Assembly (NCBI RefSeq): GCF_025717535.1
Contig: NZ_JAJIRO010000005.1
Coordinates: 248,001-312,000 of the forward strand
From: Paucibacter sp. Y2R2-4
Lineage (GTDB): Bacteria; Pseudomonadota; Gammaproteobacteria; Burkholderiales; Burkholderiaceae_C
DNA length: 64,000 bases
Direction of reading: 5' to 3'
Shown: piece by piece, positions 33,033 through 42,446 of the stretch
Layout of the letters: every line of letters starts with the position of its first letter
How positions within the stretch are numbered: the first letter of the stretch is position 1
Notes under the pieces: model-generated
Database searches by the model: none
Told to the model about the DNA's origin: nothing
Seen by the model: the letters and a program-made list of their open reading frames with translations, nothing else
Made by a program: the position numbers and the translations under genes

Positions 33033-33120
33033 GGAGAGGTGGCAGAGTGGTTGAATGTACCTGACTCGAAATCAGGCGGACGGAAACGTCTCGGGGGTTC
33101 GAATCCCCCCCTCTCCTCCA
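33033..33120 (+). tRNA. tRNA-Ser (anticodon CGA)
   Basis: An 88-nt class II tRNA: the acceptor arms are GGAGAGG and CCTCTCC, the anticodon stem CCTGA/TCAGG carries the loop CTCGAAA (anticodon CGA), the variable arm is long (GCGGACGGAAACGTCTC region), the T loop is GTTCGAATC, and CCA is encoded. The last 17 bases are duplicated at 42429-42446, the other end of an inserted element, so the gene was kept intact by the insertion. Confidence 0.97.
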
Positions 33121-33121
33121 A
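33104..33121. repeat. Left attachment site (attL), 18-bp direct repeat
   Basis: The sequence TCCCCCCCTCTCCTCCAA covers the 3' end of tRNA-Ser plus one base and occurs again, exactly, at 42429-42446. A tRNA 3' end as crossover site is the rule for tyrosine-integrase elements. Confidence 0.9.
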
Positions 33122-33566: not shown

Positions 33567-34085
33567 ATGGCAAGCGCCAAGACCAACAACGGACAACTCC
33601 CGCCCGGTTTCGTGTCCCCGTTCAAGCGGGTCGAAATGAAGGGCACCCACGACGACTTGCTGGCCTGTGCGGCCATCTTGTGTGGCAAGTCCATGGAGGA
33701 CGTCAAGAAGATGGCCGTCACCCTGGGCATGCCGGCCAACGGTCCATTCTTCATGTCAGACATGTTGTTTAGGCAGATTGCCTTCAACCTCAGTCCCCTA
33801 GCCGTAAGCGAGTACAAGGATTTGACCGCGACCAATGCGTTGCCCGAGGTAGCCGTTCTTTGCGTGGACTACGACAAGCACAGCGAGGCCTGTCGGCACG
33901 TGGTGTTCCACCAAGTCCGGGCTTCCGAGAAGACGCCAGCTTTCGGCTATGTGATTGATCCCGCCAACTGGCTAACGCCTGACCAGCACATCACGATCGA
34001 CTTGAGCCATCTAAATCTGAAGCCAGCCTGGTACTTGGAGATCACGCAGCGCCCCGGCACCACGCCGATCCGTAGCAGCAAATAA
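33567..34085 (+). CDS. Unknown protein, possible C39-peptidase-like fold without catalytic Cys
   Basis: 172 residues; AGGAAACAGA precedes the ATG at good spacing. Not recognised with confidence. By eye, HDDLLACAAILCGKSMEDV (about residues 28-46) resembles the opening helix of papain-like C39 peptidases (DCGVACLAMLLGxSYEEV), with the later histidine (CRHVVFH, about 110) and aspartate (GYVIDPANW, about 131) in the expected order. The nucleophile cysteine of that pattern is an aspartate here, so it would be inactive or act as a binding module. First gene of the island; it is followed 19 bases later by another unknown gene. Confidence 0.55.
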   Translation: MASAKTNNGQLPPGFVSPFKRVEMKGTHDDLLACAAILCGKSMEDVKKMAVTLGMPANGPFFMSDMLFRQIAFNLSPLAVSEYKDLTATNALPEVAVLCVDYDKHSEACRHVVFHQVRASEKTPAFGYVIDPANWLTPDQHITIDLSHLNLKPAWYLEITQRPGTTPIRSSK

Positions 34086-34104
34086 GCAGAGCCGGACGCC
34101 CACC

Positions 34105-34458
34105 ATGCACACCAGAATGCAAGCGATCCGGCCAATGCGCAGCCTGCTGAATCAGTTGCCATGCCTGCCGGTGACGGACGAGCGCATGGTGGACTACACC
34201 GCAGCTGACCCACATCTCTTCGTAGCGATCCGCGACGACGCGGAGATGACTATGCGGGTCATTCATCAAGGCCTTACCGCCATTGGCAGTCTCATTGCCC
34301 ACTCTGGGGTGGCCATTGAGGATGGCTCCATAGGGGCAGACTGCCTTGAAAGCCTGGGCTACCTGATGGCGGAACTTGGGGACATTGCGTCCGGCTTCAT
34401 GGTCATGGCGGCGCACTGCCGGCGCGAGACTCAGGATTTCAAGGAGCCTTTCCTTTAA
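34105..34458 (+). CDS. Unknown island protein, 117 aa
   Basis: A mostly helical, soluble protein with no signal peptide. The middle (MRVIHQGLTAIGSLIAHSG, about 50-68) and the ESLGYLMAELGDIASGFMVM stretch suggest a helical bundle. Not recognised. It sits 19 bases after the C39-like gene and reads in the same direction, so the two may be one transcript. Two ATGs near the start (34105 and 34117) are possible; the ribosome-binding site is weak. Confidence 0.5.
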   Translation: MHTRMQAIRPMRSLLNQLPCLPVTDERMVDYTAADPHLFVAIRDDAEMTMRVIHQGLTAIGSLIAHSGVAIEDGSIGADCLESLGYLMAELGDIASGFMVMAAHCRRETQDFKEPFL

Positions 34459-34554
34459 GGGGGCAAGGAGCCTGCATGTTCTAGTGGATGCTGCGCGTGG
34501 GAAAATACAGCAAAGTTGCTTGGCAAATGCCAGGCTAAGAATTGTTCAGGACAA

Positions 34555-35367
34555 ATGATGCTGATGAAGCAAGTGGAGTTACTGGAGCCTGAGGCGCCGG
34601 TGCGAAAGCCCAAGCGGGTGGCGGGCGGCGAAGCCACGACCGATCTTGTCTTCTCGGCCTACGTATCAGACAACGCGCCAGTATTCAGGCAGATTCTCGA
34701 CCTGCATATGCCCGACGGCGGCATCATCGCAGACGTTACCTACGGTAAGGGTGCGTTCTGGACCGAGATTGACCTGAGCCGCTACACGTTGCTTGCTTCA
34801 GACATAGCAGCCAAGCCTCAGCGCAAGGAACTGTCGCAGATCGAAATCAAGGACGGTGTGGACTGTCGCGCCTTGCCATATGGCGACAACTCTCTCGATG
34901 GCCTAGTGCTAGACCCACCCTACATGGAGGGCTTCTATCGTGGAGACACAGACCATTTGGCGGGCGGAGGAACTCACGCGGCGTTCAGACATCATTATTC
35001 CAACGGGCGCGCAATCGAAGCCCCCGAAGAGGGGGCTCCGAAGTGGCACGACGCAGTAGTTGATATGTATGTTCGTGCTGGCTGGGAGGCTGAACGAGCA
35101 CTCAAGAGGGACGGCATCTTCATCGTGAAGTGTCAAGATGAGGTCAGCGCCAACAAGCAGCGCTTGACCCATGTTGAACTCATCACCGCATACGAGTCGA
35201 TGGGTTTCTATACAAAAGACTTGTTTGTAGTCGTTAGATCCAACAAAGCAGGCGTGAGTCGCCTTATCAAGCAAGCCCACGCTCGGAAGAACCACTCCTA
35301 CTTCCTCGTGTTCCAGAAAAGGAAGGTCAAGCTCTCGTCGGTCGTTACCGCGCCTAAGCCTAGGTAG
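34555..35367 (+). CDS. DNA methyltransferase (N6-adenine/N4-cytosine type)
   Basis: About 270 residues. A SAM-binding motif I ([14 protein letters not shown], about residues 52-65) is followed by the catalytic motif IV DPPY in [12 protein letters not shown] (about 121-132), then a Rossmann strand [12 protein letters not shown] marks amino-methyltransferases (adenine N6 or cytosine N4); the specific target cannot be read. The start is set at the ATG at 34555, with ATG 34558 having the better AGGA spacing; a TTG at 34516 is also in frame. It ends overlapping, tail to tail by 8 bases, the endonuclease-like gene at 35360-36142, which suggests a restriction-modification pair. Confidence 0.83.
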
Positions 35368-36142
35368 GCTCGTTTGCACCCTTTGCGGCCAGCCGACGTT
35401 CGAGGAGCTTGTCCAACAGCTCGAACGGGTCGCTCACGAACGGAGCGTTCAGTGGCAACGTAACCGGGATCAGCGAGGCGATGAGTTGCTCGCGCACTTC
35501 ATTTGAGTAGCTGCCGTGGGTACTGCGAGGCAGGTCCTCGTTCAGTGCAAATCCGAATTCCCATTCGCCACGAAAGCCGAAGATGCCGGCCGCGACAATA
35601 TCGAACTCGCCCACCTTTAGGAGCGTAGTCTCTACCACCTCACCATTCGCAAGTGGAAGCTTGCGTCGGTCACTGGCATCGCACTGGAATGCACCGCGAT
35701 AGCTAGTCTCTTTCTTGAATTTCTCGGGCAGCGCCGTGTATCGCTCATCTAGCACCCACTTGAAGATGGCGGCTCCCTTCCGTGGCTTGCCCGCTTTGGT
35801 CAAGCCCGGGGATGCCTTGCGGCCGACCTCCTTCTTCGCCATAAGCCGCAGCCAGTTGCCATCGGGCAGGAGCACTTCGACTTGGTTTGTCTGTAGCGAT
35901 TTGACCTCGATGCGAAATTCCTCGCCCTTGTAGGTCACCACTAGGTCGCCCTTTTTCGTCCGATCGTGGTCGTCGTCTTTCCGGTGCGCCTCGGTCCGGT
36001 TGTGATGGTCGAAGAGTTCCTTGAGCTTCCGCTCGGCGATGTAGCCCACGATCATTCCGCGCAGGCTAGGGTTTGTGTTTACAAGGTCGGTGAGGTACTC
36101 GGCACTTATGCCCCACACGTCCAATATCGTCTTTGTTGTCAA
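35360..36142 (-). CDS. Probable type II restriction endonuclease (PD-(D/E)XK-like)
   Basis: About 260 residues. The core [20 protein letters not shown] (about residues 63-82) gives the D-(x)n-E-x-K arrangement of PD-(D/E)XK nucleases, preceded by a helix with a conserved glutamate ([12 protein letters not shown]). No helicase or ATPase motifs are present, as expected for a type II enzyme. The TTG at 36142 is chosen because AAGGGGAG lies 7 bases before it; a GTG at 36193 is an alternative without such a site. Convergent with the methyltransferase; no controller (C) protein gene is seen. Recognition site unknown. Confidence 0.68.
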
Positions 36143-36238
36143 TTCCAATCTCCCCTTGCGTAAAAGGGGGAATGGTAAGTGCTCCGAGCCCACGGGACCG
36201 CGTGAGTTCCATGCCAGAGCCTAATGATTTGGCTGAAA

Positions 36239-36261
36239 AGCCTGCAGTGGCATTGCAGGCT
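36239..36261 (-). terminator. Hairpin upstream of the endonuclease gene
   Basis: Perfect 8-bp arms with a 7-nt loop; read leftward the hairpin is followed by TTTTC. Placed 97 bases upstream of the endonuclease start, it could end a leftward transcript or act as a leader attenuator limiting nuclease expression. Confidence 0.45.
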
Positions 36262-36416
36262 CAGCTCTAGCGTCGTCATTCGCTGGAATCTGTTTCGGCG
36301 CAGCCAAAGTATTAGTAAACATGACCCGCCTGATCGGTATCGATAAACTGACTTTGCGGCGCCGTTTGCGCGCCGTGCCGCGCCATACCAGGGCGCCACC
36401 AACAGCCGATCCCATC

Positions 36417-36450
36417 AAGAGCCACGACTGCGCAAGCGGCCGTGGCTCTT
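36417..36450 (+). terminator. Hairpin 50 bases upstream of the 36500 gene
   Basis: The perfect 10-bp arms AAGAGCCACG and CGTGGCTCTT have a 14-nt loop and are followed by TTTGC. It could be a weak terminator or a structured leader. Confidence 0.45.
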
Positions 36451-36499
36451 TGCATGGTCGGTGCCAATGCAGTGCGGCGCAACCATCAAGGAGCCCTCG

Positions 36500-36862
36500 A
36501 TGCACACTGACCCCACTCCCGGCATAACTGAAGCTTTGGACAATGCTGCCGACGCCGAGTTCGGGCCACCCCGGTTCGGGCTTGGCCTGATTGTCGCAAC
36601 CAACGCCGCCTGCAACTTCTTCAACCGCCACGGCATCAACGCGATGGAGTACCTGCGGCTGCACGTGCGCGGCCAGTGGGGTGACGTGCCGCCCGAGGAC
36701 GCCCGCGCCAACGATGAAGCCATCAAGAACGGCGGGCGCATTCTGTCCAGCTATCGAATGGAGGGGCGCACGGTTTGGATCATCACGGAGGCCGTGACTG
36801 AGTCAGAGGCCGCTGACAACCATAGGGAATCAACCTGCTTGCTGTTTCCAAGCGAGTACTAG
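36500..36862 (+). CDS. Small plasmid/island-type protein of unknown function, 120 aa
   Basis: AAGGAG lies 6 bases before the ATG. The pattern (LGLIVATNAACNFF, then a leucine-rich helix, RGQWGDVPPEDARANDEA, NGGRILSSY and VWIITEAVTES, ending LLFPSEY) matches a widespread family of about 100-residue proteins found on proteobacterial plasmids and islands. Databases often label that family type I restriction endonuclease subunit M, although it has no methyltransferase motifs. The function is unknown; no catalytic residues are evident. It is a useful marker of horizontally acquired DNA. Confidence 0.66.
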   Translation: MHTDPTPGITEALDNAADAEFGPPRFGLGLIVATNAACNFFNRHGINAMEYLRLHVRGQWGDVPPEDARANDEAIKNGGRILSSYRMEGRTVWIITEAVTESEAADNHRESTCLLFPSEY

Positions 36863-37116
36863 CCGACCGTCAACAAGTGACCACTTGTTGGCATTCAAGC
36901 TAGAACCGTGCTTCTCCCGGAATCGAGCTTTGTTGACGCGAGATCTCTTTATGCGCATCGAGCGACATGTCTCCACTAGCTAGTCAATAAGAGATAGGTG
37001 AGAGGGGCGAGTCAATCGGATGTTTTTCGACCAGCCTAAGTTATGGGGCATCAATTGGCTGGGATTATTTGATCCCGCAGAGGCACTTGGCAGAGTCCGC
37101 TAGTGGATGGGGATAC

Positions 37117-37179
37117 GGGGGGGAGTCAGGTGCAAGAGCTTCGTAGATACCCTCGGACATTTTTAGTGAAAAACTTGGC
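37117..37179 (+). repeat. Imperfect direct repeat, left copy
   Basis: Begins with seven G and includes CCTCGGACATTTTTAGTG. The same layout (G run, CCTCAGACATTTTGGTG, ending TTGGC) recurs at 39258-39318 on the far side of the ATPase gene. Roughly two-thirds to three-quarters of positions agree by eye. Confidence 0.55.
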
Positions 37180-37284
37180 AGCTTACTTATTGAATACCTT
37201 CTTCGCACCCCTCCCTGTTTACCGCATGTTGCGCAGACGGCACTCAGGCTCGATTTGCCAATGTTTTTGCACTAGACTAAGCAG

Positions 37285-37301
37285 GCACTAATCATTAGTG
37301 C
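37285..37301. promoter_or_regulatory. Perfect palindrome before the ATPase gene (candidate operator)
   Basis: GCACTAAT and ATTAGTGC flank a single C, 33 bases before the ATG. A further half-site GCACTA lies at 37269-37274. The following GATTTTTC means a terminator cannot be excluded, but a 1-nt loop is unfavourable for a hairpin, and an operator fits better. Confidence 0.5.
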
Positions 37302-37334
37302 GATTTTTCTTAAATTAAAATCAAGGGGGGTGTA

Positions 37335-39047
37335 ATGAAAATAAATGATAAATCCGTTCGAGGACTTATTGCTCGACTGGCTGATGTTATTCGCGCGGAG
37401 AACATTACTGCATCCAATTATTTGGATTTGTATGCTGGTGATGAAGCTCTAGAGTGTATTGATAATGTAAATAATCAAGCAATATACGGCCGCCGAGGAT
37501 CGGGAAAAACGCATCTGCTTAAGGCGCTTCAAGAAAAAATAAATGCTGACTTTGAAAATGGGCGAAGACTTTGTGTTTACATTGACGCAAGAAACATCCT
37601 GCCGCTAATAAATAGTTCAGTGGCTACTTCTGAAGAGTCTGCGCTTCTTATTTTCCAGGGAATCGTGCAGTCAATGATTGACGCATTCTCTATAAACGTT
37701 CGATTGATTTTTGGTCGAGACCAAATCATCCCATTGAATGCGGACCCGTTGGATAGTGATGCGGTCAGGCGGATTGAAGATCAACTGAGAAAAATCAACC
37801 TTGAATTTTCTGGACGGTCCCTCAGGCGGCTAGGTAGTATTGCGATTACTGAGGAGAGAAACTCGGGGTCGGAGTTTCAGTTGGAAGTGGCGGCCAATCC
37901 GAAAATTTCTGCCGGCGGTAAGTCTTCTGGAAAGCAGACAGAGGTGAAGGCAGACATTCGATATGTCAGTATCCAGGAAATATCATCGTCCTTGCAGGCC
38001 TTAATTGAGTGGTTAGACTTAAGCCGTGCGATATGCCTCATTGACGAATGGTCGGAGATTCCATCTGATGTTCAAAAACACTTGGCCGAACTGATTAAAA
38101 GGGTGTTCATTTCTAGTAAGTTCAGTTTTAAAATTGGAGCCATTCCAAATCGAACTGATTTAGGGCATAGAACGCCTGGGAAATTTTACGGCCTCGAGGA
38201 TGGTGGTGATATTTTCGGTTATCAACTGGATAATCGATATGTATTCGAAATCGAAAAAAACAAGACTAGAGATTTCTTCAATGACTTGTTGCATAGGCAT
38301 CTGTACGCTATCGACCCTGTAGTAGTGGAAGGCATCTTAAAAACAAATAATAAAACAGAGTCTACGTTCATAAATGCTTTTCTGACAAATAAGGCGTTGG
38401 GAGAGTTGTGTATTGCGAGCGCCGGCATACCTAGAGATTTTATTAATCTATTTATACACTCTTATGATCAGTTTAAATCCTCTTCATTGCGGCATATTTC
38501 TGTAAAGAATGTCCGAATGGCAACCTCGGGTTGGTATGAGACTGACAAGAAGAAGCAAATAGACGAGCACATGTCAGATAAGGTGCTCCTTCAAGCGATT
38601 GTTGAAGAAATTGTTATGAAGAAAAAGTCTAGTCACTTCATGCTTAGTGAAAAGCACTCTTCGAATCCTCACATTTTGAGCCTTATTGACTTCCGAGTAT
38701 TGCATCTGCGGAAAAAAGGATACTCTCATCAAGATATTCCTGGTGAGTCGTTCAATGTTTACTTCATTGACTATGGATGCTACAATCATTTGAATATAAC
38801 TAGGGCGAATTTGAATCATGCATCTTTGGATAATATATCTGTGCAGGATGATATGCGGCAAATAAGGCGCATAGTTATCTCGGATTCATTTTTGCAGAAA
38901 TTCCAAATGCACATTGGTGAGGCATTTTCATGTCCGGTTTGCAAGAAACCTGTCGATACTATGCATCCGGCCTATGTTAAGCAGCAACTCTGTAACAATT
39001 GCTTCGAGCCTGCCGGTCTTTCTGGTCAATCTCGGTCGACTGTTTAG
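37335..39047 (+). CDS. P-loop ATPase (AAA+, ORC/Cdc6-like) with C-terminal zinc ribbon
   Basis: 570 residues, AT-rich coding sequence, preceded by AAGGGGGGTG. Walker A is YGRRGSGKTHLL (about residues 51-62), Walker B AICLIDEWSEI (about 235-245), and a sensor-1-like strand follows (FKIGAIPNRTDLG). A C-terminal half of unknown fold has FRVLHLRKKGY and YFIDYGCYNHL (about 455-485), which resembles a winged-helix region of ORC/Cdc6-like bacterial ATPases. The protein ends with a zinc ribbon, CPVC and CNNC about 18 residues apart (from about 535). No nuclease motif is in the protein itself. Location in a small island beside a restriction-modification pair suggests a defence or replication-interference role; this is inference. 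Confidence 0.72.
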   Translation: MKINDKSVRGLIARLADVIRAENITASNYLDLYAGDEALECIDNVNNQAIYGRRGSGKTHLLKALQEKINADFENGRRLCVYIDARNILPLINSSVATSEESALLIFQGIVQSMIDAFSINVRLIFGRDQIIPLNADPLDSDAVRRIEDQLRKINLEFSGRSLRRLGSIAITEERNSGSEFQLEVAANPKISAGGKSSGKQTEVKADIRYVSIQEISSSLQALIEWLDLSRAICLIDEWSEIPSDVQKHLAELIKRVFISSKFSFKIGAIPNRTDLGHRTPGKFYGLEDGGDIFGYQLDNRYVFEIEKNKTRDFFNDLLHRHLYAIDPVVVEGILKTNNKTESTFINAFLTNKALGELCIASAGIPRDFINLFIHSYDQFKSSSLRHISVKNVRMATSGWYETDKKKQIDEHMSDKVLLQAIVEEIVMKKKSSHFMLSEKHSSNPHILSLIDFRVLHLRKKGYSHQDIPGESFNVYFIDYGCYNHLNITRANLNHASLDNISVQDDMRQIRRIVISDSFLQKFQMHIGEAFSCPVCKKPVDTMHPAYVKQQLCNNCFEPAGLSGQSRSTV

Positions 39048-39758
39048 TTTTCTGTTTTACAAAGTCCCATGCCTGCGGCAGCGAAGTTGCCAATGAAGGC
39101 CGCAGAGTAGTCTTGCGAGGGGGGGGGCGAGCGAGGACCGCACGACCTACACGTATCCACAGCCGGAACTCAAAAACCGGCAAGCTTGTATGTGCAGTAT
39201 TCAGTCGGAACGGTGGATCAGAGTCTGGCTTGCGCAAACATGGTTGAGACGCAGAGCGGGGGGGGCGCGATGCATGAACCCCGTGGATGTCCTCAGACAT
39301 TTTGGTGCAAAAGTTGGCCCACCCCTCGATTGCGCATTCGGCCCCCAAGCTCGACAGTACTGTTTCGGATGGTCAATAAAAACTAGCTGAGCGCCCCGAG
39401 GTTGCCAAATGCCCAAGCCTGACATTTGAGGTCGAGCGTGGCATTAATTCGATTGGTGCAGATTCGGCCGAGCTATAGTCGTTGCCCAGCATTGCACTAA
39501 ATGGTGACTATCTCTCGCTGCAGGTTGAGTAGAAAGAGCATAAGATTGGTTCAATCTTTTTCGTAATGGTGGAGGGCAAATGCGAGTTAACCTTTAGGGC
39601 TCTTTCCTCAAAGATGTAGCTGCTTTTCTGACTTATTTTCATCGTACTATCTCTAGATCTATGCTAGGACCATTTTATGGTCAAGCAAGGTCTATCCTAT
39701 TTTTTCTAAAAATTAGGGTGGCAATTTTTGACTACTGCCGATAAAACTATTTCTGGAT
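39048..39758. other. 711-base spacer between the ATPase and the 39759 gene
   Basis: No frame here is supported. The left part (39100-39400) is GC-richer, has two G runs (39119-39127, 39258-39265) and holds the right copy of the imperfect repeat; the right part is AT-rich, with an inverted repeat GACCAT/ATGGTC at 39668-39682. It looks like a junction between pieces of different origin. Confidence 0.5.
39258..39318 (+). repeat. Imperfect direct repeat, right copy
   Basis: Starts with eight G, then a diverged copy of the 37117-37179 segment (conserved blocks TGCA, CGTGGATG against CGTAGATA, CAGACATTTT, AAGTTGGC). With the left copy it brackets the ATPase gene. Confidence 0.55.
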
Positions 39759-40391
39759 GTGGATTTTAACTTTGTAAACATGACCGCCACTGAATTTTTT
39801 TACCGCGATATTTTTCAAGAGTTTCGATTTTTTCTTCTTCTGGAAAATCCGAAATCGACTCGCGAAATTACGGTTTCGATTAAAGAATTTTTCAAAAAAC
39901 AGTATTCTGATAAATATACCGTCTTATGTAGCCATGACAGTGGAAGTGAATTCTTGCTCGACATTATGGTTGCAGCGTTTGATCCAAAGTCGATCATTGA
40001 GAAAAATACGCTCAATGTTTCGTCAGCTGAATTCAGTGTCTTTGTCGGAGTTGAATCTGAGCTTGGCGGCGTTGGCGCATCGTCACCCTATGGTGTAATG
40101 AAAAATGTGGTCGAAGATTATCTGAAATTGCTTCTGGTTAACGTTCGTCATCGAGTTATGGTCTTTACCTCTCTTCCTTATCAGGGGGAGGATAATCATG
40201 TCGAATCAAGAGTGGAAACCCTCCGGCTGATCTATGAAAGAACCGCCGTAGCTTCTGGAGGGGTGCTCCTTATCCATCTGGTCGGCTCTCAACCAAGATC
40301 AACTCAAGTTCAAGCCCAAGTTTCTGCAGCATCAATCCGCGGATTTATTATTTCGCAGGACGGGAAGTCAGTGGTAGAGTTAAGTTCATAA
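39759..40391 (+). CDS. Unknown 210-aa island protein, possible PD-(D/E)XK-like nuclease
   Basis: AT-rich gene starting at a GTG (39759) or an ATG (39780); neither has a strong ribosome-binding site. No membrane segment. The central part EFLLDIMVAAF, then FSVFVGVESELGG (about residues 65-103), followed by a helix (MKNVVEDYLKLLLVNVRHR) and a strand (VMVFTSLPY), has the order of a restriction-endonuclease-like core with Asp and ExE in place of ExK. The absent lysine makes this tentative. It lies 711 bases after the ATPase gene, same strand and composition, so they may be parts of one acquired module. Confidence 0.5.
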   Translation: MDFNFVNMTATEFFYRDIFQEFRFFLLLENPKSTREITVSIKEFFKKQYSDKYTVLCSHDSGSEFLLDIMVAAFDPKSIIEKNTLNVSSAEFSVFVGVESELGGVGASSPYGVMKNVVEDYLKLLLVNVRHRVMVFTSLPYQGEDNHVESRVETLRLIYERTAVASGGVLLIHLVGSQPRSTQVQAQVSAASIRGFIISQDGKSVVELSS

Positions 40392-40415: not shown

Positions 40416-40724
40416 GTGAAGAAGATATCACTCTTAGTTGTTGTTGCTTTATTACTCTCCGCTTGTGGGGGAGTTGAGTCTGAAGCGAAGAAAGCAGTTC
40501 TAGGTCGGCTTAAAGACCCTGACTCTGCGAAGTTTGGGAAATTCACCCAAGTCAATGAAAAGACCGCTTGCTTGACTGTGAATGCTCGCAACTCTATGGG
40601 GGGCTACACTGGCGATCAGCAGGCGCATCTAATGAAATTTGAGGATAAATGGGATGTCATGACTATTGGCGAAGTGAGTCACGATGAGTGCATTGGCATT
40701 ATGAAGAAGGCCTCAGAGAAATAA
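40416..40724 (+). CDS. Small lipoprotein, 102 aa
   Basis: It begins at a GTG with KKISLLVVVALLLSACGG: a positively charged start, hydrophobic helix and lipobox LSAC with the lipidated cysteine at about residue 17. The mature part (KAVLGRLKDPDSAKFGKF, then ACLTVNARNSMGGYTGDQQ) resembles small lipoproteins widespread in proteobacteria and some phages, with unknown role. Preceded closely by the 39759 gene (24-base gap, AAGG upstream). It is probably anchored to a membrane; surface-exclusion or accessory roles are possible but unproven. Confidence 0.72.
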   Translation: MKKISLLVVVALLLSACGGVESEAKKAVLGRLKDPDSAKFGKFTQVNEKTACLTVNARNSMGGYTGDQQAHLMKFEDKWDVMTIGEVSHDECIGIMKKASEK

Positions 40725-42309: not shown

Positions 42310-42428
42310 GCTGTCTTGGTTGTGGCTTGCTGGAGGAGTAACTTTACCACCAAGATTTACCACTTAAACAACGATCTAAGTCGTTGTTTACTATGGAGTA
42401 AGTGACTTTTTTAATAAAAAATCGAGAG

Positions 42429-42446
42429 TCCCCCCCTCTCCTCCAA
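42429..42446. repeat. Right attachment site (attR), 18-bp direct repeat
   Basis: Exact copy of TCCCCCCCTCTCCTCCAA from the tRNA-Ser 3' end. Beyond it host DNA resumes with the displaced tRNA terminator. Confidence 0.9.

Follow-up and report, generated by a model that had tools for sequence, protein, structure and literature searches.

The window analysed here is a stretch of 64,000 nucleotides from a contig of Paucibacter sp. Y2R2-4, and this report concerns one gene within it, at positions 37335-39047, which encodes a P-loop ATPase. We propose that this is a stand-alone anti-invader gene, most likely anti-phage, carried as cargo on an island inserted at a tRNA-Ser gene, and that its product is an ORC/Cdc6-STAND AAA+ ATPase that acts on DNA without a nuclease. 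We put the probability of this reading at about 0.55. It is based on the predicted domain layout, the conservation of the ATPase residues and of a set of ribbon cysteines, the mobility of the gene as a single unit, and the presence of one copy in a slot that holds defence-type genes. From these we infer a role in defence, and the mechanism suggested below goes a step further than that role and is put forward more tentatively.

Motifs and predicted fold of the ATPase

The stop-free run at this position is 577 residues long, compared with a longest run of 235 residues in 300 dinucleotide-preserving shuffles of positions 37001-39300. An initial annotation, made from the letters of the window, described the base composition of the gene as far from that of the host, and so it is: the guanine plus cytosine (GC) content of the open reading frame is 0.414 and that of the whole window is 0.606, and outside approximately 36.5-41.5 kb every 1713-nt stretch (taken in steps of 200) has a GC content of at least 0.564. 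The same annotation listed Walker A and Walker B motifs, a sensor-1-like strand, a FIDYGCY block and a CPVC/CNNC ribbon, all of which are present (Table 1), and the motifs are conserved in an alignment of 81 sequences, called A2 below. The sensor-2-like motif GIPRD (residues 364-368) was absent from its list. Because the ATPase motifs are conserved across the 81 sequences, they are not a product of chance. The positions invariant in A2 include the GRRGxGKTH loop, D84, D237, E238, Q247, D299, G364, R367, D368, R454, H457, D479 and Y483, and R273 of the sensor-1-like strand, a candidate arginine finger, is nearly invariant. A D[YF][GA]xY-type block occurs in all 81 sequences, being exactly DYGCY in 62 of them. 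The two cysteine pairs of the putative zinc ribbon are at residues 533-536 (CPVC, 38931-38942) and 553-556 (CNNC, 38991-39002). Taken together, the intact Walker A and Walker B motifs, the sensor-2-like arginine and the candidate arginine finger argue that the protein would be active in ATP hydrolysis.

The structure predicted by AlphaFold2 from A2 has a predicted local distance difference test score (pLDDT) of 84.9 and a predicted template modelling score of 0.83, with residues 163-202 being of low confidence. In order from the N-terminus, the model contains an AAA+ core, a helical lid (residues ~300-410) and a winged helix (413-478 by secondary structure, the whole domain being taken as ~405-483). 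Comparison with known structures using VIA-align has the archaeal AAA+ protein 2qen as its top row (Z 15.9, root mean square deviation (rmsd) 4.6, 317 residues aligned), and includes Cdc6 (1fnn, Z 15.7, rmsd 8.5, 286 aligned), Orc2 (1w5s, Z 15.7, rmsd 4.5, 258 aligned), TnsC (9g0f, Z 15.0), RdrA of RADAR (8hr8, Z 14.6), the STAND proteins CED-4 and NRC4 (Z 13.2 each) and BrxC (9zdx, Z 12.8). The features expected of the ORC/Cdc6-STAND class were found, namely Walker A in 81 of the 81 sequences, D237 and E238 of Walker B, and R367, which would serve as sensor 2. On the strength of the predicted structure, the assignment to this class is firm, and the nearer kinship inside the class is left unseparated because TnsC, RdrA, the STAND proteins and BrxC all score within about 3 Z units of the top row. 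The comparison with ORC/Cdc6 proposed by the initial annotation has therefore come out in favour of a relationship, both in the Cdc6 and Orc rows and in a match to the ORC-CDC6-like Pfam family PF24389, described below.

When the C-terminal 166 residues are folded alone, the pLDDT is moderate (74.7). The top row for this isolated model is 5v8f_A, residues 790-907, at Z 5.2, which is weak by itself but in the expected place; we take chain A of 5v8f to be yeast Orc1, and the aligned part to be its winged helix. The PDB rows for the model span mostly its residues 1-91, that is, the winged helix, and Foldseek with the same model gave 0 of 472 matches at E <= 0.001. Against viral models, Foldseek gave four matches at E <= 0.001, either unnamed or resembling replication factor C. 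A sequence search of the PDB returned one irrelevant row (E 1.2), and a profile search 10 rows, the best being DnaA (E 0.0049). Catalytic motifs of nucleases or toxins were not seen in the protein.

A family with a ribbon-bearing clade

A profile built from four homologues was run on 84,980 species genomes and on viral contigs. It found 152 stretches encoding relatives in the species genomes, of which 80 were retained, and 12 viral-contig loci; the same 12 were returned when the viral contigs were rescanned with the alignment of the ribbon-bearing clade. By comparison, a search with a single sequence gave 33 pattern matches and no relative. Of the sequences in A2, 80 were taken from 92 loci of the species-genome and viral scans. 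Partial or irregular frames were excluded (L040, L070, L081, L083, L084, L086, L098, L099 and L100), as were L031 (long uncertain start), L049 (short start) and L062 (which shares a contig with L002).

A maximum-likelihood tree, made by the quick method, places the window protein in a clade of 11 sequences with an SH-aLRT (Shimodaira-Hasegawa-like approximate likelihood ratio test) support of 100. The members come from Bacillota, Bacteroidota, Pseudomonadota and one viral contig, and C533, C536, C553 and C556 are invariant in all 11. In the other 70 sequences, a search of the last 120 residues for the pattern CxxC-x12-20-CxxC gave no match. The mixture of phyla in so small a clade fits horizontal transfer, without proving it; the window protein is 37-47% identical to the clade members in other phyla (alignment A3), with its catalytic residues kept. 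A homologue in a distant genome of the class, outside A2 (G240, locus L103), likewise terminates in CARC...CPEC. Relatives in Vibrio, Rheinheimera and one viral contig (L074, L076, L088, L085 and L093) are longer, at about 655-665 residues, and their extra C-terminal part has an NN[IM]SRxLR-like motif, for which there was no family in the tally of families matched by A2 members.

Among plasmid records, 23 of 72,556 carry the gene, 22 of these being from Burkholderia glumae (with proteins at least 99% identical) and one from Acetobacter. A single phage record out of 50,697 carries it, as a truncated prophage copy beside an insertion sequence (IS). This copy (L006, OP596612.1) lies between the tRNA-Thr/IS1380 end and the integrase of the Bradyrhizobium prophage ppBdUSDA122-1, which is a typical cargo position.

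The island at tRNA-Ser

The ATPase gene lies in an island of 9.3 kb, which starts at the 3' end of tRNA-Ser(CGA) and stops at the repeat copy at 42426-42446. The description of the gene as island cargo in the initial annotation is well supported by the tRNA, the repeats (20 of 21 nt in common), the integrase, and a related island that lacks the ATPase. All 18 genomes of the genus, this one included, had a match to the serS-tRNA-Ser DNA, and the region was compared in 7 of the 17 congeners. One of these (G012) has a related island at tRNA-Ser(CGA), whose scaffold genes are 83, 83 and 71% identical to those in Table 1. Its methylase and companion genes are not those of the present island, and an ATPase like the present one was not found there. 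Two others (G009 and G008) have unrelated DNA between the tRNA and the right flank, in G006 and G003 synteny resumes at about 53.8 kb of the window, and in G007 (where the contig ends) and G011 there was no match past the tRNA in the stretch compared. The ATPase itself is found in 0 of 17 congeners and in 3 of 148 relatives, and at E 1e-20 in 3 of 369 genomes of the class, counting its own genome in the latter two figures. Homologues mainly in core genomes and with a housekeeping role, an outcome that the initial annotation said would refute its view, were thus not seen. Given these counts and the variability of the tRNA-Ser DNA between congeners, the ATPase is regarded as exchangeable cargo.

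Table 1 Positions of the ATPase gene, its motifs and the other features of the island
Feature	Position	Strand	Remarks
ORC/Cdc6-like AAA+ ATPase, winged helix and C-terminal zinc-ribbon motif	37335..39047	+	570 aa
Walker A GRRGSGKT	37488..37511	+	residues 52-59; pattern in 81/81 aligned (A2)
Walker B ICLIDEWSE	38031..38057	+	residues 233-241; D237 and E238 invariant in 81 sequences
Sensor-1-like strand FKIGAIPNRT	38127..38156	+	residues 265-274; putative role
Sensor-2-like AGIPRDF	38421..38441	+	residues 363-369; G364, R367, D368 invariant; putative role
Winged-helix domain, ends in FIDYGCY	38547..38783	+	about residues 405-483; predicted secondary structure
FIDYGCY block	38763..38783	+	residues 477-483
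Zinc-ribbon motif CPVC-x16-CNNC	38931..39002	+	residues 533-556
tRNA-Ser(CGA), integration target	33033..33120	+	
Left attachment repeat (tRNA 3' end)	33101..33121	+	20/21 bases in common with 42426-42446
Right attachment repeat	42426..42446	+	20/21 copy of tRNA 3' end
Tyrosine integrase, 431 aa	41068..42363	-	PF00589 4.4e-16, PF20172 5.8e-12; adjoins right repeat
Two island scaffold genes, 172 and 117 aa	33567..34458	+	83% identical genes in G012 island
Third scaffold gene, 133 aa	36461..36862	+	71% identical gene in G012 island
Methylase-like gene	34516..35367	+	PF01555 1.1e-5, 25.9 bits, just under cut-off 26.7
PD-(D/E)XK-like restriction gene, candidate	35360..36193	-	GDLVV...FRIEVKS read by eye
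210-aa gene without family	39759-40391		downstream of ATPase; below all Pfam cut-offs
Lipoprotein-like 102-aa gene	40416-40724		downstream of ATPase; below all Pfam cut-offs

Upstream of the ATPase, the methylase-like gene is probably half of a restriction-modification pair. Its candidate partner at 35360-36193 has what we take to be a PD-(D/E)XK-type motif. Searches with this gene against Pfam (E 1) and PADLOC (E 0.001) gave no family, and a single PADLOC row appeared at 0.01. In the G012 island, the scaffold interior that corresponds to 33567-36862 is swapped for a set including a C5-methylase-like gene (named by eye), and the interior is apparently a slot in which restriction-modification genes are exchanged.

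Gene neighbourhoods

The neighbourhoods of 94 homologue loci, with 1,215 predicted genes, were compared; for unannotated loci the genes come from a simple caller, and some are likely to be wrong, especially where the DNA is GC-rich. The initial annotation saw the ATPase as the core of a module whose downstream gene would recur with it, and this was not supported. A module with either of the two genes downstream (Table 1) was rejected, neither of them having a blastp relative (E 1e-3) among the 1,215 genes, and no conserved non-mobile partner gene was found in the 94 loci. The median gap is 238 nt upstream and 172 nt downstream, and a same-strand gene lies within 50 nt in 13 of 83 cases upstream and 11 of 83 downstream. 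By these results, the ATPase gene looks like a unit by itself. The commonest neighbour cluster is a tyrosine integrase, in 11 of the 94 loci (a lower bound for integrases), and Phage_integrase matches 6 of 150 immediate neighbours. Serine recombinases are found in four loci, and the remaining common clusters look like housekeeping genes or transposases.

A number of copies have defence genes close by. Hachiman HamB (1399 bits) adjoins the ATPase in L016, with an integrase on the opposite side. On the B. glumae plasmid (L005), GajA (817 bits) and GajB (691 bits) are annotated genes preceding the ATPase, about 1.2 kb away, and gamma-mobile-trio genes follow it. In L013 there is a SIR2/ThsA-like gene before the ATPase and PDC-S13 behind it, near the ATPase of L009 (at a contig end) there is an HNH fragment like those of CBASS effectors, and L012 has an AbiU2-like gene, below its cut-off. 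A Bro-N / PDC-S13 type protein directly follows the ATPase in three Lachnospiraceae loci (L013, L014 and L083), in the last of which the ATPase frame is broken into pieces. The association with restriction systems proposed in the initial annotation stands for the present island, with its methylase-like and PD-(D/E)XK-like genes upstream, but is no general rule, the neighbours being mixed.

The immediate neighbours comprise 166 genes, 152 of them of 80-1000 residues, and 150 were scanned against PADLOC, together with 106 of 114 distal genes. At 1e-10, 65 PADLOC families were matched among the 150 proximal proteins and 18 among the 106 distal ones.

A variable slot behind nrdJ

Of all the contexts examined, a slot in Pseudoxanthomonas (L010) says most about function. 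There the ATPase homologue lies 41 nt after, and on the same strand as, a gene for the terminal portion of a B12-type ribonucleotide reductase (TSCPD domain); we take this gene to be nrdJ. In the genome G159, a homologue of DS41_1, the NCBIfam model of DS-41 (396 bits, cut-off 370), lies 91 nt after an nrdJ part that is 82% identical. This homologue terminates in CPKC-x15-CQSC, ribbon-like as in the window ATPase. The nrdJ gene was found at E 1e-60 in 51 of 60 genomes of the family to which G159 belongs, and the slot behind it was read in 30 loci of that family, one of them with less than 300 nt behind the gene. The following gene differs at nearly every slot, with a single recurring family (3 of 30 loci), and these differences may be somewhat overstated by the simple gene caller. 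No relatives of the window ATPase were found among the up to three following frames per locus. Ten intact-looking following genes, picked by hand, were scanned against PADLOC, and five had matches: HEC-07 (3.4e-81), PDC-S15 (3.3e-43), a type II methyltransferase (3.1e-187), a dGTPase (3e-69) and PDC-S31 (4.8e-7, weak). Behind the 3' end of the B12-type ribonucleotide reductase gene (slots at L010:9129-9971, L154:579-1471 and L184-L213), the cargo thus varies greatly within one genome family.

A slot that holds many different defence genes is the usual signature of defence cargo. It is because the nrdJ slot holds many different genes, several of them defence-type, that we put defence above the other explanations considered below. 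The slot is common to the ATPase and the DS-41 homologue, and offers a small, readable site for finding more single-gene defences.

Proposed mechanism

We infer that the protein hydrolyses ATP, binds DNA, oligomerises, and blocks its target without cleavage. The winged helix and the ribbon would make the contact with the invader, either with its DNA directly or with a DNA-bound protein. On binding ATP, the AAA+ cores would come together on that DNA as an arc, a ring or a filament, by way of the candidate arginine finger, and the assembly would block or stall replication or transcription of the invader, or recruit a host factor. As no nuclease or toxin domain is seen, the assembly itself may be the effector, by occupation of the DNA. 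ATP-driven self-assembly is modelled here on BrxC, for which self-association and DNA binding are reported to be regulated by ATP (PMC13326643). A more specific version, which we consider a long shot, is that the ATPase, guided by the winged helix and ribbon, loads on the origin or forks of incoming DNA and poisons the replisome, so that selfish DNA would be recognised by its replication state and not by its modification. A widespread relative of the conflict-system ATPases that moves as one gene and has no recognisable nuclease would reduce the system to the ATPase core, which would itself have to do the work, and would hence be a clean test of what such cores do.

Several points weigh against a defence role of this kind. 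An effector domain is not seen, which is unusual in single-gene defence, and the ribbon is assigned from its cysteine pattern. The defence neighbours listed above had been selected by eye ahead of the scan. In a single-neighbour scan of ribbon-clade loci, which left out L011, L015 and L021, there was no PADLOC match for the chosen neighbours of L010 (the following gene) and L089 (one neighbour). An enrichment of defence genes among proximal over distal neighbours is not demonstrated at the protein level, because among the 25 proximal PADLOC families listed most are methylase models with two members each. The other five of the ten nrdJ-slot genes scanned had no PADLOC match. The profile of A2 aligns with three full PF24389 members over 52 columns (hhalign, probability 93), and with the Sll1717 and DS41_1 families over 59 columns, in each case in the P-loop region only. 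Finally, no experimental study of the ATPase family was recognised in the literature searched, many journals being outside its coverage.

Alternative explanations

The alternative that survives best, although we think it unlikely, is that the protein is a STAND-type switch or regulator, which senses a phage product and whose winged helix alters host transcription or activates a host toxin. The presence of CED-4 and NRC4 among the structure rows would agree with this, as would a perfect palindrome with 8-bp arms, GCACTAATCATTAGTGC, at 37285-37301, 33 nt 5' of the start codon of the ATPase. However, no repeat sensor domain and no conserved partner were seen, and palindromes with 8-bp arms are found upstream in 9 of 93 loci (the window included, and two being near copies), against 4.5% of random stretches. 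A conserved operator was rejected, since the palindromes of the nine loci differ in sequence and the control is at 4.5%.

It is distinctly improbable that the ATPase is instead an initiator of the island, an ORC/DnaA-like protein with which the excised element would initiate its own replication. Its similarity to ORC/Cdc6 and DnaA (Bac_DnaA, 23.8 bits against a cut-off of 23) and its location on an integrative element point this way, but the 472 nt upstream and the 711 nt downstream hold repeats of two copies only and no array resembling iterons. Moreover, the copy in a Rhodoferax metagenome-assembled genome (MAG) lies between two genes, presumably purH-like and hemL-like, and is the one sizeable gene in that interval; the integrase cluster has no member in this 13-kb locus (L062). 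The Pseudoxanthomonas copy lies behind nrdJ, and the related G012 island is without the ATPase.

Equally hard to favour is a helper of a transposase or recombinase, that is, a target selector like TnsC, MuB or IstB. The TnsC rows, at Z 14-15, are close to that of Cdc6, and integrases are the commonest neighbours. Nevertheless, 83 of the 94 loci have no member of the integrase cluster in the stretch examined (though the cluster may miss other integrases), and no transposase recurs beyond a few loci. To our knowledge, tyrosine recombinases do not require AAA+ helpers.

That the gene is a passenger here, functionless and either neutral or in decay, as its AT-rich composition, its sporadic occurrence and the truncated prophage relative beside an IS might suggest, is very improbable, as the frame is full-length and the catalytic residues are retained at the identities to other phyla given above.

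Comparison with known families and systems

The initial annotation recognised no family for the ATPase. This is correct in that no characterised family matches at full length, but PF24389 does match, with 48.5 bits against a gathering threshold of 27. The best of two matching stretches covers residues 17-66, corresponding to model positions 4-53 of 571, and the genome search likewise aligns PF24389 over positions 4-53 only. Members of A2 that match at E 0.001 number 81 of 81 for PF24389, 81 of 81 for Sll1717, 45 of 81 for DS41_1 and 50 of 81 for mad8. What the window ATPase and PF24389 have in common is the P-loop region. The full-length PF24389 members, such as the host's own (353 bits), adjoin a metallophosphoesterase-like gene (named by eye), unlike the window ATPase. 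The host protein is at G000 C1:1507507-1509273 (L007), between this 399-residue gene and a gene of 330 residues, and in L105 a ParA-like domain has a PF24389 domain fused behind it, followed by a gene of ~320 residues that may equal the third component of L007. This arrangement is possibly a separate defence operon.

In PADLOC-DB 2.0.0, the window ATPase matches mad8 (E 3.7e-7), PDC-S60 (9e-6, over 50 residues round the P-loop) and AbiLi (0.015), and no specific near full-length model match was found there. An assignment to MADS through mad8 was rejected: at 1e-10 the PADLOC model, PDLC04140, has matches in 142 of 143 genomes and in every one of the 14 controls, and being non-specific, it calls for a stricter threshold in mad8 calls.

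The Sll1717 P-loop ATPase family (NF047389) and DS-41 (NF053860, DS41_1) both show weak similarity, the window ATPase scoring 34.5 bits for the former, with a cut-off of 75, and 27.8 bits for the latter, with a cut-off of 370. A further group of weak Sll1717 matches was rejected as relatives (hhalign probability 1.2), and a search of viral contigs for DS41_1 relatives gave six pattern matches and no relatives. DS-41 was validated as an anti-phage system in the DefensePredictor study (PMC13092281).

Orc1/Cdc6-type proteins mark replication origins in archaea and eukaryotes. These initiators have an AAA+ core, a lid and then a winged helix, as in the window ATPase, but the latter is about 10-16% identical to them (in the rows listed), bacterial, solitary and mobile, and has the extra ribbon motif. 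BrxC/DUF499 of BREX and BREX-related systems also has an ORC/Cdc6 ATPase followed by a winged helix (PMC12839542). BrxC, according to the same source, is 1200-1300 residues long, carries additional domains and acts together with the other proteins of BREX, whereas the window ATPase has 570 residues and no conserved partner. Members of the ORC/Cdc6 family have been termed the mainstay of various conflict systems (PMC10853773), and as described in these sources, conflict ATPases of ORC/Cdc6 type come with partner enzymes, as in BREX, SspABCDE and the HerA/FtsK capture systems (PMC12839542, PMC10853773).

The literature searched yielded no account of a one-gene clade that bears the ribbon. ORC/Cdc6 ATPases in bacterial conflict systems, including predicted multi-gene ones, are already known, and what appears to be new here is the ribbon-bearing clade in which the ATPase stands as a single gene.

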